The notes under the pieces are model-generated. The model saw nothing but the letters and a program-made list of their open reading frames with translations. It did not search any database and had not been told where the DNA came from. Below are positions 15,883 to 32,122 of a DNA stretch of 36,985 nt, piece by piece. A program made the translations under genes and the position numbers. The DNA is from Treponema sp. (lineage in GTDB: Bacteria; Spirochaetota; Spirochaetia; Treponematales; Treponemataceae): contig JAILHD010000177.1 of the NCBI GenBank assembly GCA_024696155.1, forward strand, positions 1 to 36,985. Direction: 5' to 3'. The number at the start of each line of letters is the position of its first letter. Within the stretch, counting starts at the first letter, position 1.

Positions 15883-15943
15883 AGGAAATCCAACAACTTG
15901 CGCTTGCGCAAGTTAAAGCAAGGTACGTGGCCTTCGGAAGTTG
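15882..15943 (-). repeat. Partial third copy (R3) of the structured intergenic repeat found upstream of purL
   Basis: Minus strand CAACTTCCGAAGGCCACGTACCTTGCTTTAACTTGCGCAAGCGCAAGTTGTTGG aligns to R2 CAACTTCCGAGTGCCACGTACCGGCTATCACTTGTCGCAAAGCGCCAAGTGTATGG. Confidence 0.75.
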
Positions 15944-15952
15944 ATGTTTAGA

Positions 15953-16699
15953 TTATGCCTTGCTCGCATTAAAACAGATTTCGGCCGTTACTTCATCACC
16001 TATGCGCAGATATTCTTCTGCCATTTTCTGAAGAAAGAAACGGTCGGCTGTTTTTCCAAAGCCTAAATCAAGGGCGCGTTCATAAACATCCAGCGCAAGT
16101 TCATCATTTATAACGCCATCAATATTATTCTTAAGAATAGCATAAGTAAAATCCATAACTTCTGGAAAGAAAATCTTAAAATAATTAAAAGAATATTCCA
16201 TTTTAATAATCTGTTCCAAAAGCAAAAAAGCATCGTAATATTCTGCGCGGATTACAAGCTCTTCTGCAAGAATATAGCCGTAGTCCATAAAATCTTCGCG
16301 GCTGAACCATTTTTTAAGCGAAAAATCCACATGATTCATCTGCATGCGTTTGAACTCTGCAACGGCTTCATCTTCTTTCTGGTGCATAAGGGTGTAGAAA
16401 ATCAGTTTAGAACGGCTTTCTTCGTCCTGTCGTTCGTTAAGCCATGTATAATAATCAAAAGTATCTCTGTGCTGGTAATTTCTGCCAAAACGCATAAAAA
16501 AAGATTCATCAAAAATTGTGCGCTGGCGTGCATCTGAAAGTACGCGATATGCTGTTACAACCTTTTCAAATTCATCACGTCGGCTTACATCACCGGTAAG
16601 GTCTGGATGGAGAAGTTTTGCTTTTTCGCGATAGGCACGCTTAATTTCGCTAAGTGTAGCGTTCTGGCGGACACCAAGTGTTTTATAATAGTCTGTCAC
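15953..16699 (-). CDS. J-domain (DnaJ-like) protein
   Basis: N-terminal DYYKTLGVRQNATLSEIKRAYREKAKLLHPDLTGD; C-terminal region unrecognised. Confidence 0.85.
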   Translation of the reverse strand: MTDYYKTLGVRQNATLSEIKRAYREKAKLLHPDLTGDVSRRDEFEKVVTAYRVLSDARQRTIFDESFFMRFGRNYQHRDTFDYYTWLNERQDEESRSKLIFYTLMHQKEDEAVAEFKRMQMNHVDFSLKKWFSREDFMDYGYILAEELVIRAEYYDAFLLLEQIIKMEYSFNYFKIFFPEVMDFTYAILKNNIDGVINDELALDVYERALDLGFGKTADRFFLQKMAEEYLRIGDEVTAEICFNASKA

Positions 16700-26254: not shown

Positions 26255-26611
26255 TTACTCAGCTTCGCTCAAAGTTGTTTCTTCTGAAGCAGCTTCTGAT
26301 TTCCACCATTCAGCAGATGTTGATTCTTCTGAAGTAGCTTCTACTGCTGTTGGTTCAACAAGGTCTTTAGCAACTGCTGGCTTTTTGTTGATCAAAGCAA
26401 GACCCAAAGAAAGGCCAAAGAATAAAACTACAAATACGAATGTTGTTTTTGTAAGGATTGATGCTGAGTGAGCTCCAAAAGCGGCTGTTCCGCGTCCACC
26501 CAAAAGACCGCCCATTCCGTTTTCTCCGTCATCCTGAATAGAAACCAAGAGAACCAAAAGAAAACAAACAATTACAAATGCAACCAAAAGTACAACACCA
26601 AGAGTACCCAT
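26255..26611 (-). CDS. secG: Preprotein translocase subunit SecG
   Basis: LLVLLVSIQDDGENGMGGLLGGRGTAAFGAHSASILTKTTF, two TM helices, acidic C-tail. Confidence 0.88.
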   Translation of the reverse strand: MGTLGVVLLVAFVIVCFLLVLLVSIQDDGENGMGGLLGGRGTAAFGAHSASILTKTTFVFVVLFFGLSLGLALINKKPAVAKDLVEPTAVEATSEESTSAEWWKSEAASEETTLSEAE

Positions 26612-26653
26612 TTTATATCTCCAAAAAATTTTTCTTTAAAATTAAGTTTTCAA

Positions 26654-26682
26654 ATGATAATGAAAAACGATTTTTTAGTCAA
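26654..26682 (-). promoter_or_regulatory. secG promoter
   Basis: Minus strand TTGACT (26682-26677), 17 nt, TATCAT (26659-26654). Confidence 0.65.
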
Positions 26683-26718
26683 TTTACTATATGGAAGAAA
26701 TATAAAATTGGGCAAGAA

Positions 26719-26872
26719 AAAAAATGGTGCAAGGGAGCGAAGCATTGTTCAAAAACACTCTGTTTGTGGCTGCCGCGAAAGCGGCAAGTTTAATAGTTTC
26801 TTTACCACAAACAGCGTGTAGCGCGTTATCGCGCGGTTTTGGACAATGCTTCGCGACCGGAAACCATTTTTT
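26719..26872. repeat. Long imperfect palindromic element (R0) with nested hairpins
   Basis: AAAATGGT/ACCATTTT, GCGAAGCATTGTTC/GGACAATGCTTCGC, CTGTTTGTGG/CCACAAACAG; inner GCCGC-GAAA-GCGGC and GCGCG-TTAT-CGCGC hairpins. Confidence 0.8.
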
Positions 26873-26886
26873 TTCTTTCATTTATG

Positions 26887-26978
26887 TTTGCCGCGCTGGT
26901 CGCAATTTGTTTTTCTAACTTCCGAATGGCCCGAACCAGCTATTACTTGCTGCTGACGCATCAAGTAATAGGAAACCG
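26887..26978 (+). repeat. Structured tandem repeat unit R1
   Basis: TTTGCCGCGCTGGTCGCAA...AGGAAACCG; stems GCTGGT/ACCAGC and CTATTACTTG/CAAGTAATAG. Confidence 0.85.
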
Positions 26979-27068
26979 TTTGCTGCGCCGGTCGCAATTA
27001 CACTTCCAACTTCCGAGTGCCACGTACCGGCTATCACTTGTCGCAAAGCGCCAAGTGTATGGAAACCG
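26979..27068 (+). repeat. Structured tandem repeat unit R2
   Basis: TTTGCTGCGCCGGTCGCAA...TGGAAACCG; stems GCCGGT/ACCGGC and CACTTG/CAAGTG. Confidence 0.85.
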
Positions 27069-27069
27069 T

Positions 27070-27098
27070 TTGCCCATGATTGCGATTTTCACTATAAT
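27070..27098 (+). promoter_or_regulatory. purL promoter (predicted leaderless)
   Basis: TTGCCC (27070-27075), 17 nt, TATAAT (27093-27098); ATG at 27105. Confidence 0.65.
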
Positions 27099-27104
27099 GC
27101 TCCC

Positions 27105-30100
27105 ATGTATCGTTTATATGTAGAAAGAAGAGCTGGTTTTGAAAATGAAGCCCGCCGCTATTTGTCAGAAATCAACAGTTTTTTGGGAATTTCCAGTGTT
27201 ACTGGAGTTCGTTATTTCAACCGCTATGATGTTGAAAATGTGAGCGATGAAGTTGCTAAAATTGCCGCAACACGCATTTTCAGCGAGCTTCAGAGTGATT
27301 TGTGCTTTACAGAAACTCTTGATGTTGCTGCGGATGAAACAGAAATTGTCTGGGAATATCTTCCTGGCCAGTACGACCAGCGTGCCGACAGCGCTGAACA
27401 GTGTATTTCTTTGCTTCGTGCAGGTCTTACAGGCGTAAAAACTAATTCTGAACCTCCTGTTGTTCGCTGTGCAAAAATTGTCCTTTTAAAAGGAAAACTT
27501 TCTGCATCTGATGTTGAAAAAATTCAGAACTATCTTGTGAACCCTGTTGATTCACGACTTACTGATGAAACAAAGCCCGAAACCCTGAAAATGCAGCTTG
27601 AAGATCCTGCTGACATTCCAGTTGTCGAGGGCTTTATTAAATTTGATGACAAGGCTCTTGAAGAGTACCGCAACAAGATGGGCCTTGCTATGGATCATGC
27701 CGACATCAAATTCCTTCAGGATTATTTTATTGGTGAAAAACGCGATCCTACAGAAACTGAAATCCGCGTACTCGATACATACTGGTCTGACCACTGCCGT
27801 CATACCACTTTCTTGACAGAACTTAAAGACATTAAGATTGAAGACGGTCCTTATTCAGGCCTCTTTAAAAAATCTCTTGAAAGCTACAACGATATGCGTA
27901 CTGAGCTTTATGCAGGCCGCACAGATAAGCCGGTTTGTTTAATGGATATGGCTGTAATCGGAATGAAGTATCTTAAAAAGCACGGAAAGCTTGAAGATAT
28001 GGAAGTTTCTGAAGAAAACAATGCCTGCTCAGTTTATATTGATGTTCATTATACAACTGATGAAAAAGGCGCTCCTCTTGCCGCTGATGATCCGCGCGCA
28101 ACTGAACGCTGGCTTATGATGTTCAAAAACGAAACTCATAACCATCCTACAGAAATTGAACCTTTTGGTGGCGCTGCAACTTGTCTTGGTGGTGCTATCC
28201 GTGACCCTCTTTCTGGCCGTTCATGGGTTTATCAGTCAATGCGTATTACTGGTGCTTCTGACCCTACAGTTCCTCTGGCTGCAACTCTTAAAGGAAAATT
28301 GCCACAGGTAAAAATCTGCCGCGAAGCTGCACAGGGCTTCTCTTCTTACGGAAACCAGATTGGTCTTACAACTGGTCAGGTAGCAGAAATCTATCACCCG
28401 GGTTATGTTGCAAAACGCATGGAGCTTGGTGCCGTAATTGCTGCCGCTCCTGTTGATACAGTTATCCGTGAGCGTCCTGAGCCGGGCGACATTATCATCC
28501 TTCTTGGCGGTGGTACTGGCCGCGATGGTATTGGTGGAGCAACAGGTTCTTCTAAAGTTCATACCGTAAAATCTGTTACAACTGCTGCTGCAGAAGTTCA
28601 GAAGGGTAACGCAGTAGAAGAACGCAAAATTCAGCGCCTTTTCCGCAACAAAGAAGTAAGCCTTATGATTCGCCGCTGTAACGACTTTGGTGCTGGTGGT
28701 GTTTCAGTTGCTGTTGGTGAATTGGCACCAGGCCTCGACATCAACCTCGACGCTGTACCAAAGAAGTATGAAGGTTTGAACGGAACAGAACTTGCAATTT
28801 CTGAAAGCCAGGAACGTATGGCTGTAGTTGTTCGCAAGGGTGACGTTGACCGCTTTATCAATGAAGCTAAAAAAGAAAACCTCAACGCTGTTGTTGTTGC
28901 AACAGTTACAGATACAAACCGCCTTGTAATGAAGTGGCGCGGAAATACAATCGTAAATATTGGCCGCGAATTCCTCGATGCTGCCGGTGCTCACCACGAA
29001 GCTACAGCTTTGATTGAAAGCCCTGCTGAACCAGAAAAATCACCACTTTTGAATCCTCTTGCTTCAGTTTCTGAAGAATTGAACAAAGGGGTAAAGTGCG
29101 AAGGTTGTGTAAAGAATCATCTTACAGAAGCCTGGCTTAAAAATATCAGTGACCTTGCCTGCTGTTCTCAGCGCGGACTTGGTGAACGCTTTGATGGTTC
29201 TATTGGTGCCAGCACTGTTTTGTTCCCTTATGGAGGAAAATATCAGAACACACCGGAAGCTGGTATGTCTGCAAAGATTCCTGTAATGACACCGCGTGAA
29301 ACTTCTACTGCAAGTTTGATGACTTACGGTTTTGACCCTCGCGTTGGAAACTGGTCTCCATGGCACGGTGCAAAAACTGCAGTTTTGAGTTCTCTTGCAA
29401 AAATCACTTGTATTGGTGGTAAGGCACGCACATCACGCCTGAGTTTCCAGGAATTCTTTGGTCGTGCTGTGAACGAAAAACGCTGGGGATACCCTGCTGC
29501 AGCTCTTCTTGGTTCTGTAAACGCTCAGATTGAATCTGGTTGTGCTTCAATTGGTGGTAAAGATTCAATGTCTGGTACTTTTGAAGATATCAACGTTCCA
29601 CATACACTTGTAAGTTTTGCTGTAACTCATGATGAAGCAAAGAATGTTGTAAGCGGTGCCTTCAAAAAAGCTGGAAACAATATCTATCTTGTAAGCGTTC
29701 CTTACTCAGATGCTCTTGATCCTGATTACGAAACCTTCCTTAAAAACAGCGACCTTCTTTATGATTTGAACAAGGCTGGAAAAATCAGCGCTATGTACCC
29801 TGTTGCAGCTGGTGGTATTGCAGAAGCCGTTACAAAAATGGCAATGGGTAATATGACTGGTGTTGAAATTGATGCTAAAGCTTTTTGCTGTGTTAAAAAA
29901 TTCTTTGTTCCAACTTACGGAAACATTGTTGTAGAAACAAGCGAAGCTCTTGAAAATGCAGGTTTTGCAGCAGGTACTCTTACAAAACTTGGAACTACAA
30001 CTGCCGATGCAAAAATTACTGTAAAAAATGCAGAAATTGGAGGAATTACAAATCCTTCTGTTGAAATTGCACTTTCTGATTGTGTTGCATCTTGGGAGAA

Positions 30101-31085
30101 GACATTAAAAGATGTATTCCCTCAGGTAAGCGGGGCAGAAGTTCAGCCTGAACTTCCAGAGTGGGCAAAATCAGTTCATAAATCTTTGAGTGATGTTCGC
30201 AAGGCTCCTGCATTTGTAGAAGCTAAATCACATCCAAAAGTATTGCTTCCTGTATTCCCAGGTACTAACTGCGAAATCGATATGGCACGTGCATTCAATC
30301 TTGCCGGTGCAAATACAAAGATTTTAGTTCTCCGTAACAAGAATCCAGAGATGCTTAATGAATCTCTTGAAGAACTTGCACGTGAACTTAAAGATACTCA
30401 GATTCTTGCTTTGAGTGGTGGTTTCTCTGCTGGTGATGAACCTGACGGTTCTGCAAAATTCATTGCAAACGTTCTTAAGGCTGGAAAAATCAGCGAAGAA
30501 GTAATGAATCTTCTTAAGAAACGTGCTGGTCTTGTTCTTGGTATTTGTAATGGATTCCAGGCACTTGTAAAAACAGGTCTTGCCGTAACTGGCGAAATCT
30601 GCGATATGACAGAAGATATGCCTACTTTGACTTACAACAGAATCGGACGACATATCAGCCGTATTGTTCGCACACGCATTGTAAGTGCAGCTTCGCCTTG
30701 GGCAATGCACCCTAGTGTAGTAGACGGACGTAATCATCTTATTGCAATCAGTCATGGTGAAGGCCGCTTTGTTTGCGATAACGCTACTGCCGAAAAACTC
30801 TTTAAAAACGGACAGGTATTCAGCCAGTACGTTGATGAAAAAGGTGTTCCTGCAATTCTTGAACCAGATAACCCTAACGGATCTGCATTCGCTATTGAAG
30901 GTATTACATCTCCTGACGGCCATGTTCTTGGTAAAATGGGCCACAACGAGCGCGGAATCGGTCTTGAAAACGGGGGAGCAAGCTTTTACCTCTTCAAAAA
31001 TGTTGTTGGAAATCCTCTTACTAACGCAGATGAAACAACCTGCGAAAACATTTTTGCAGCCGGTGTAGCTTACTTTAAGAACTAG
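27105..31085 (+). CDS. purL: Phosphoribosylformylglycinamidine synthase, single chain with C-terminal glutamine amidotransferase
   Basis: 1326 aa; DTYWSDHCRHTTF, FKNETHNHPTEIEPFGGAATCLGG, C-terminal PurQ-like LPVFPGTNCEIDMARAF and LGICNGFQAL. Confidence 0.95.
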   Translation: MYRLYVERRAGFENEARRYLSEINSFLGISSVTGVRYFNRYDVENVSDEVAKIAATRIFSELQSDLCFTETLDVAADETEIVWEYLPGQYDQRADSAEQCISLLRAGLTGVKTNSEPPVVRCAKIVLLKGKLSASDVEKIQNYLVNPVDSRLTDETKPETLKMQLEDPADIPVVEGFIKFDDKALEEYRNKMGLAMDHADIKFLQDYFIGEKRDPTETEIRVLDTYWSDHCRHTTFLTELKDIKIEDGPYSGLFKKSLESYNDMRTELYAGRTDKPVCLMDMAVIGMKYLKKHGKLEDMEVSEENNACSVYIDVHYTTDEKGAPLAADDPRATERWLMMFKNETHNHPTEIEPFGGAATCLGGAIRDPLSGRSWVYQSMRITGASDPTVPLAATLKGKLPQVKICREAAQGFSSYGNQIGLTTGQVAEIYHPGYVAKRMELGAVIAAAPVDTVIRERPEPGDIIILLGGGTGRDGIGGATGSSKVHTVKSVTTAAAEVQKGNAVEERKIQRLFRNKEVSLMIRRCNDFGAGGVSVAVGELAPGLDINLDAVPKKYEGLNGTELAISESQERMAVVVRKGDVDRFINEAKKENLNAVVVATVTDTNRLVMKWRGNTIVNIGREFLDAAGAHHEATALIESPAEPEKSPLLNPLASVSEELNKGVKCEGCVKNHLTEAWLKNISDLACCSQRGLGERFDGSIGASTVLFPYGGKYQNTPEAGMSAKIPVMTPRETSTASLMTYGFDPRVGNWSPWHGAKTAVLSSLAKITCIGGKARTSRLSFQEFFGRAVNEKRWGYPAAALLGSVNAQIESGCASIGGKDSMSGTFEDINVPHTLVSFAVTHDEAKNVVSGAFKKAGNNIYLVSVPYSDALDPDYETFLKNSDLLYDLNKAGKISAMYPVAAGGIAEAVTKMAMGNMTGVEIDAKAFCCVKKFFVPTYGNIVVETSEALENAGFAAGTLTKLGTTTADAKITVKNAEIGGITNPSVEIALSDCVASWEKTLKDVFPQVSGAEVQPELPEWAKSVHKSLSDVRKAPAFVEAKSHPKVLLPVFPGTNCEIDMARAFNLAGANTKILVLRNKNPEMLNESLEELARELKDTQILALSGGFSAGDEPDGSAKFIANVLKAGKISEEVMNLLKKRAGLVLGICNGFQALVKTGLAVTGEICDMTEDMPTLTYNRIGRHISRIVRTRIVSAASPWAMHPSVVDGRNHLIAISHGEGRFVCDNATAEKLFKNGQVFSQYVDEKGVPAILEPDNPNGSAFAIEGITSPDGHVLGKMGHNERGIGLENGGASFYLFKNVVGNPLTNADETTCENIFAAGVAYFKN

Positions 31086-31093
31086 GATTGGTT

Positions 31094-32122
31094 ATGAATA
31101 AGATTGGTTTTAGAAAACTTGCGGTAAGCCTTTTTACTTCTGCTTTAGTTTTTGCCGCAGCACCCGTTTTTGCTTTAGGGAATAGCGGGTTTTATGCAGA
31201 TATGGACTCTGGTCTTGCTGCGGCAAAAAAGTCATCTCAATCTGTGCTTGTTTTTATAACACAGGAAGGGGAGGACGAACTTAGCGCTTCTTTTATGGAG
31301 ACTGTGCGTTCGGACGAGGTTCAGGGCCAGATTGCATCAAAATATGCGCTGGTTCACATGGACTTTAGTCAGAGTGCATTCCAGAAGACGGTTGTTCGCG
31401 ATGCAGACAGTAAAGAGGTTCAGGAAGAATCTAAAAAAGCGGCTGATGTAATGCAGAAAAACTCGCGCTTTGCGGCTTTGATTAATCCTGAATTTACTCC
31501 TGCGGTTTATATGTTTACTTCAGAAGGATATTATGTAAGTCATCTGGTTTTAAAGGGTGATGAAAAAGCTGACGGTTTTATGGCAGCGCTCAAAGCTGAT
31601 GAAGTAAAATTGAATGCCATTCGCGAAATGATTGCAAAAACTAAGGTTGGAAAATCTTTGGAAAAAATTTCTGCAATTGATGCTCTTTTTGAAGCAACTC
31701 AGCCGGAATATCGTTTTTTTTTGATTGATCTTGTAAACGAAGCAATTAATCTTGATAAAAAGAATAAGTCTGGCTTGATGAGTAAATATATCATTACACG
31801 TACTGAATATGATGCAATGATTTGTTTTTACGACAACAATGCATCGGGCGCTGTAAATGCCTATGTTAAAGCTGCAAAGGAAAAGTTTCTGAGTGCAGAA
31901 GAAAAACAGCAGGCTTACTATATGGCTGCCCTTGTATTGGTAAAATCAAGTGGACCTGAAAGTGTTCCAATGATTGTTAATTATCTTGAAAAATCTCTGG
32001 AAGCTGCTCCAAAATCTGCTGTGGCTTCTAAAGTAAAAGATAACTTGGATTACTTTAAAGATTATCAGGCAAAGATGAACGCGGCCGGAAACGGTACTGC
32101 AGCAGGTGGTAAAAACAAGTAG
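31094..32122 (+). CDS. Exported thioredoxin-fold-like protein lacking CxxC
   Basis: Signal peptide MNKIGFRKLAVSLFTSALVFAAAPVFA; AAKKSSQSVLVFITQ...TPAVYMFTSEGYYV. Start moved from TTG 31088 to ATG 31094 (SD AGGA). Confidence 0.65.
   Translation: MNKIGFRKLAVSLFTSALVFAAAPVFALGNSGFYADMDSGLAAAKKSSQSVLVFITQEGEDELSASFMETVRSDEVQGQIASKYALVHMDFSQSAFQKTVVRDADSKEVQEESKKAADVMQKNSRFAALINPEFTPAVYMFTSEGYYVSHLVLKGDEKADGFMAALKADEVKLNAIREMIAKTKVGKSLEKISAIDALFEATQPEYRFFLIDLVNEAINLDKKNKSGLMSKYIITRTEYDAMICFYDNNASGAVNAYVKAAKEKFLSAEEKQQAYYMAALVLVKSSGPESVPMIVNYLEKSLEAAPKSAVASKVKDNLDYFKDYQAKMNAAGNGTAAGGKNK

Follow-up and report, generated by a model that had tools for sequence, protein, structure and literature searches.

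Two-hairpin repeats upstream of purL in Treponema: tandem copies of a probably mobile DNA element that favors gene 3' ends

Two head-to-tail repeats, R1 and R2, lie between the divergent genes secG (26255-26611, minus strand) and purL (27105-31085, plus strand) in a Treponema genome, and the question they raise is what kind of element they represent and whether their paired stems have been kept at the level of RNA or of DNA. The window, meaning the whole stretch of DNA that was analyzed, is an entire contig of 36,985 nucleotides (G000:C176) from a genome of 2.40 Mb in 181 contigs with an estimated completeness of 86%. A first-pass annotation had described two units with four stem arms, and all of these were located as claimed to within one base. 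The 90-92 bp proposed for the repeat unit had to be revised, however, as the site consists of elements of 85 and 83 nt set among three copies (GTTTGCC, GTTTGCT, GTTTGCC) of a target-site duplication of 7 bp. The GTTTGC with which both units start and a downstream stub called R3, formerly taken as parts of the repeat, are copies of this duplication. The element copies in the window and the duplications at the purL site are as follows:

26886-26892, plus strand: target-site duplication copy 1, GTTTGCC (one copy at the unfilled locus L111 of Treponema sp. C6A8, three in the window)
26893-26977, plus strand: element copy R1, 85 nt (stem A, 26895-26900 with 26935-26940; stem B, 26941-26949 with 26962-26970)
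26978-26984, plus strand: target-site duplication copy 2, GTTTGCT, separating R1 from R2
26985-27067, plus strand: element copy R2, 83 nt (stem A, 26987-26992 with 27026-27031; stem B, 27032-27040 with 27052-27060 in part)
27068-27074, plus strand: target-site duplication copy 3, GTTTGCC, the R3 stub, overlapping the -35 box of the predicted purL promoter
15886-15966, minus strand: third element copy of the window, between convergent genes (69.4 bits with covariance model R2)

The orthologous neighborhood of Treponema sp. C6A8 has GTTTGCC once and lacks the element (..TTTCATTTAG-GTTTGCC-CATATATG..), while the filled arrangement in the window is ..TTTCATTTAT-GTTTGCC-R1-GTTTGCT-R2-GTTTGCC-CATG..; R1 and R2 are thus insertions, and the shared starts together with R3 are 7-bp target duplications of GTTTGCC. 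A predicted purL promoter-like site (TTGCCC-17-TATAAT, 27070-27098) is situated downstream of R2. R1 scored 92.9 bits with covariance model R1, whose training set included the R1 copy, and 59.2 bits with model R2, and the corresponding scores of R2 were 85.8 and 64.8 bits. Both compensated changes reported between the two copies are real: stem A is GCTGGT/ACCAGC in R1 and GCCGGT/ACCGGC in R2, a T-A pair against a C-G pair, and stem B contains TACTTG/CAAGTA in R1 and CACTTG (27035-27040) paired with CAAGTG (27052-27057) in R2, the complete stem B of R1 pairing TATTACTTG (26941-26949) with CAAGTAATA (26962-26970). The 5' end of the third copy provides the stop codon of the gene at 15953-16699 (minus strand), and its site is empty in C6A8 (L226), JC4 (L227) and RUG517 (L230). 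Positions 26714-26877 belong to a separate, imperfect inverted-repeat element of ~155-165 bp that is abundant, the same genome having at least 40 copies of it; only its last third is retained in the C6A8 ortholog, and gene ends of JC4 and C6A8 carry copies of it too (L257, L258, L261, L262).

BLAST recovered three convincing additional copies of the two-hairpin element in its own genome (L002, L003, L005), and R1 and R2 gave no matches beyond that genome in a search against 39 relatives; the diverged copies could be reached by covariance models only. A first model from five copies found about 30 copies in the own genome and 20-24 in each of three more genomes among 98 genus members. With a second model built from 22 copies, counts at E<=0.1 were 40 for the own genome (G000), 51 for uncultured Treponema SRR8387715_bin.109 (G004), 40 for RUG517 (G040), 39 for Treponema sp. 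C6A8 (G078) and 36 for Treponema sp. JC4 (G114), with 1-2 matches in G005, G064 and G080 and zero copies in five well-assembled congeners; counts at this threshold may contain chance matches, but these should be few given the zeros in non-carriers. Further genomic copies, whose absence would have counted against the first-pass annotation, therefore exist, at about 40 per carrier genome. All five carriers are rumen Treponema genomes, with orthologous loci roughly 75-93% identical in DNA, and an exact core-motif scan of one genome per species (85,462 species) returned 21 stretches, all of them in Treponema. The exact motif was not found in viral contigs, and phage cargo was rejected. With dozens of diverged copies and a conserved fold, apparently limited to one clade, the element fits the bcr-like type of clade-restricted structured interspersed repeat, which is a class as opposed to a homologous family. 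None of the 4227 Rfam families matched the element, either in the window or at ten other loci, and no description of it was found in the open-licence papers searched; it is apparently an undescribed family of small non-autonomous structured repeats.

Copies are uniformly full length (about 77-94 nt, typically ~83 nt) and fold on one strand into two adjoining hairpins: stem A (8 bp at most) encloses a loop of ~34 nt in which the motifs GGTCGTAAT and CAACTTCCGAAT are conserved, and stem B forms a tight 9-bp hairpin. The consensus reads TGCAAAGGTCGTAAT-n(6-8)-YYCAACTTCCGAAT-n(5)-GAACCTTTGC-TT-AACTTGCGC-n(3-4)-GCGCAAGTT-GTTGGATT. Single-sequence folding was weak (z = -1.9 and -1.2 for R1 and R2, respectively) and would miss this structure. 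In an alignment of 94 copies fitted to the structure, 94.8% of 1507 pair cells held standard pairs (70.9% after shuffling), double changes were present in 17 of 17 pairs, and the covariation score was 0.582 compared with 0.141 ± 0.010 for shuffled alignments, a value reached in 0 of 500 shuffles; slid registers scored 0.103 or less. An alignment of 22 copies made with MAFFT, and so not structure-fitted, gave the same picture (0.419 against 0.143). G-U pairs accounted for only 8 of 1512 standard pairs (0.5%), as opposed to 17 of 213 (8%) in ten tRNAs from the same loci. This near-absence is the main argument that DNA is the level at which the helices are constrained or corrected, and it favors DNA hairpins or correction between arms over ordinary RNA evolution. 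The covariation proposed from R1 and R2 has accordingly held up with more sequences; the reading of paired changes as selection on structure is partly supported, and correction of one arm against the other could also generate them without selection. A third helix (pseudoknot) between the loop segment CAAC/TTCC and the 3' tail GTTGGA was rejected, no register passing the family-wise threshold and complementarity of copies to their own tails being barely above shuffles (12.86 against 12.15 ± 0.25; 2 of 300), and no helix was found between the two variable loop parts. An HDV-like ribozyme, whose topology a loop-tail pseudoknot would have produced, was rejected with the pseudoknot unsupported and Rfam giving no match. 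A GC-rich hairpin followed by a T run, as in an intrinsic terminator, is absent from 26600-27200, and the family tail is GTTGTTGGATT.

Filled and empty sites with target duplications bear out the earlier suggestion that the palindromic DNA is mobile. Comparison of L120 in C6A8 with JC4 (L160) revealed an 8-bp duplication, TACCGAGT; here near-identical copies about 100 bp apart occupy alternative sites in the two isolates, as if one element had moved locally. At L037 the duplication is about 13 bp (TAGTTTACAAATC), single in JC4 and common to a diverged same-site copy in G004 (ortholog L221), at L050 CCATACTG surrounds the second copy, and at L131 the duplication is about 5 bp. The lengths are therefore 5, 7, 8, 8 and about 13 bp, of which only 7, 8 and ~13 are firm. 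Flanking repeats of at least 8 bp were found at 4 copies against 0.3 expected, one of the 4 being R2, whose repeat is partly R1 itself; candidate empty sites at L149/L159/L169, L151 and L140 are too diverged for a duplication to be read. The ends defined by empty sites (GCGCTGG...GGAAACC and ATTGGCG...GTAGGACT) bear no terminal inverted repeats. The Y1 transposase domain (PF01797) is absent from the carriers G000, G004, G040 and G078, and RVT_1 was found in 2 of 5 carriers and not in G000, G004 or JC4, with the reservation that G000 is only 86% complete and that a lost or distant enzyme is conceivable. At L256 the stem A loop was lost by a deletion between the stem A arms, a typical behavior of DNA hairpins. 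Two decayed copies (L259, L260) are 3'-truncated. At L261 in JC4 only TGCAAAGGTTGTAAT is present at the gene end, the remainder being replaced by the abundant inverted repeat, while G004 and RUG517 have the full element (L148, L265); the JC4 sequence may be a remnant or a target resembling the element's 5' end. Another palindromic repeat (ccacagatgggacacagatt ... aatccgtgtcctatctgtg) encloses many of the copies and was seen in the flanks of L053, L117, L138, L122, L146, L124, L143, L126, L128, L134 and L149, so that repeat families stack in the carrier genomes.

The position of the element relative to genes is strongly biased. Among 67 distinct loci, 35 had a gene edge no more than about 25 nt from the 5' end of the element, and 32 of these edges were 3' ends of same-strand genes as opposed to 3 others (p = 4e-7); edges were taken from a simple ORF finder, so that single distances may be off but the pattern is not. 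The element started exactly behind the stop codon at 10 loci and its own GTCGTAA served as the stop codon at 6 (p about 1e-9 for stop-codon abutment). Empty sites indicated that the stop codon was native at L158, L047 and L115, and that the last codons had been replaced by the element at L045/L119/L141 and L140. TAA or TAG was rare before copies away from gene ends, and the stop codon is thus probably not a mere sequence target. Copies at orthologous sites were 95-100% identical in most between-species pairs, compared with 47-87%, mostly below 75%, at fourfold sites in neighboring genes. Selection on the element itself is therefore likely from these comparisons, though not proven, because the near flanks of orthologous copies are often well conserved too. 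The L033 copy lies between divergent genes. Directly behind purL, C6A8 carries the element (L115) and two relatives carry another GC-rich hairpin (L241, L236); neither occurs at 30916-31234 of the window. The element also lies directly behind an apparent tRNA gene 3' end (GTTCAAGTCTCTTCTCCGGTA) in JC4 (L161), C6A8 (L121) and RUG517 (L170), and in JC4 (L161) the block of tRNA end and element is duplicated.

The family thus has a defined fold, inserts with target duplication and is placed strand-specifically at gene 3' ends. We consider it probable that R1 and R2 are both copies of a short non-autonomous mobile DNA element made of two DNA hairpins and moved in trans. Copy number, filled and empty sites, full length, covariation without G-U pairs and the L256 deletion argue for this reading; against it, no mobilizing enzyme was identified and duplication lengths vary, whereas most cut-and-paste transposases produce target duplications of constant length. 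A trans-supplied enzyme would recognize the folded DNA, that is, the hairpins together with the conserved unpaired motifs, and move the element. The tandem arrangement may have arisen when a second copy inserted into the GTTTGCC duplication or when recombination took place there, and many insertions may persist because they are at gene ends, at some of which insertion would have replaced the last codons and provided the stop codon. Judged from sequence comparison, a purely selfish element would not show orthologous copies that are 95-100% identical, and insertion at the level of DNA does not by itself account for the exact registration with stop codons; this registration, together with the conservation of copies in place, would be compatible with an RNA role linked to translation at some of the loci.

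Such a role could be the principal one, with copies retained after insertion because they act as RNA at mRNA 3' ends and in the gaps between cistrons; the two hairpins, directly behind or overlapping the stop codon and coupled to translation termination, would stabilize, process or terminate the transcript. The excess of same-strand gene 3' ends, the exact abutment and in-element stops, the strong conservation of orthologous copies and the presence of the element behind purL in C6A8, where two relatives have a different GC-rich hairpin, all fit this explanation, but the near-absent G-U pairs, the missing T run behind stem B, the likewise conserved near flanks, and the location of the window pair (and of L033) between divergent genes, for the window pair upstream of a predicted promoter, make it rather doubtful as the main account. 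Of the two possibilities raised originally, RNA or hairpin DNA, the scarcity of G-U pairs and the position upstream of the predicted purL promoter between divergent genes favor DNA for the pair upstream of purL, and the exact registration with stop codons means that an RNA role may exist at other loci. The covariation itself might be unselected if template switching in replication corrected arm against arm, in which case any palindromic mobile repeat would appear covarying; double changes without G-U intermediates and the one copy with an arm-to-arm deletion agree with such a process. It seems an unlikely explanation, since pairing kept in 94.8% of cells over very diverged copies and the conservation of unpaired motifs imply that more than correction keeps the element intact, and hardly any double changes were seen among close orthologs. 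Retroposition of a small RNA in the manner of a SINE, with RNA copies reverse transcribed into targets, would yield both variable duplications and a lack of inverted ends and would suit the strand-specific placement, yet it is very improbable in view of the missing 3' tail, the few truncated copies, the near-absent G-U pairs and the absence of RVT_1 from G000 (only 86% complete), G004 and JC4. A bolder and distinctly tentative proposal ties insertion or retention to stop codons: the element would land exactly behind, or replace, a same-strand stop codon, supply a stop of its own from the loop (GTCGTAA), and act at translation termination or mRNA 3' ends, moved by a class of enzyme not yet linked to small bacterial repeats, one that leaves no inverted ends and makes variable duplications.

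Small structured repeats are common in bacteria, and they raise the questions of what moves most of them and how they affect genes. The two-hairpin family combines insertions readable in the C6A8 and JC4 isolates with a well-defined, strongly covarying fold and a sharp stop-codon registration, so that both questions become directly testable. The near-absence of G-U pairs may in addition help covariation screens to distinguish palindromes that act at the DNA level from structured RNA.

Among known systems, the integron attC site is a folded single-strand recombination site directly behind a same-strand stop codon, a placement that the Treponema element resembles. The latter differs in its two separate hairpins, its target duplications and its association with native chromosomal genes instead of cassette arrays, and attC was rejected since the complementary RYYYAAC ... 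GTTRRRY boxes are missing: the GCTTAAC that precedes stem B can pair with no more than GTT, and the 3' box is GTTGTAG or GTTGTTG. The bcr1-bcr18 interspersed repeats known from the Bacillus cereus group, which form families of structured intergenic sequences restricted to one clade, are alike in kind, a comparison by description only with an unrelated host, and exact stop-codon registration is a feature of the Treponema element that the part of that source drawn on here does not mention for them (PMC3446304). With bacterial MITEs such as Correia and ERIC, which are small, dispersed, non-autonomous and intergenic with target duplications (PMC10969869), the element shares all of these properties, and an ERIC copy located at the 3' end of a gene can influence the mRNA (PMC10969869); a classical MITE of a DDE transposase was rejected for lack of terminal inverted repeats and of a constant duplication length (7, 8 and about 13 bp firm; 5 and 8 bp weaker). 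REP/REPIN sequences with TnpAREP (RAYT) are likewise extragenic hairpins in many copies, probably recognized as folded single-stranded DNA (PMC8266576, PMC3116915). A REP/RAYT system was rejected because the Y1 (HUH) transposase PF01797 is absent from the four carriers searched (G000, G004, G040 and G078) and because the unit is not a 20-40 nt palindrome with a GTAG foot; the Treponema element instead joins two unlike hairpins in 83 nt, with a consensus that starts TGCAAAGG, and is accompanied by target duplications.
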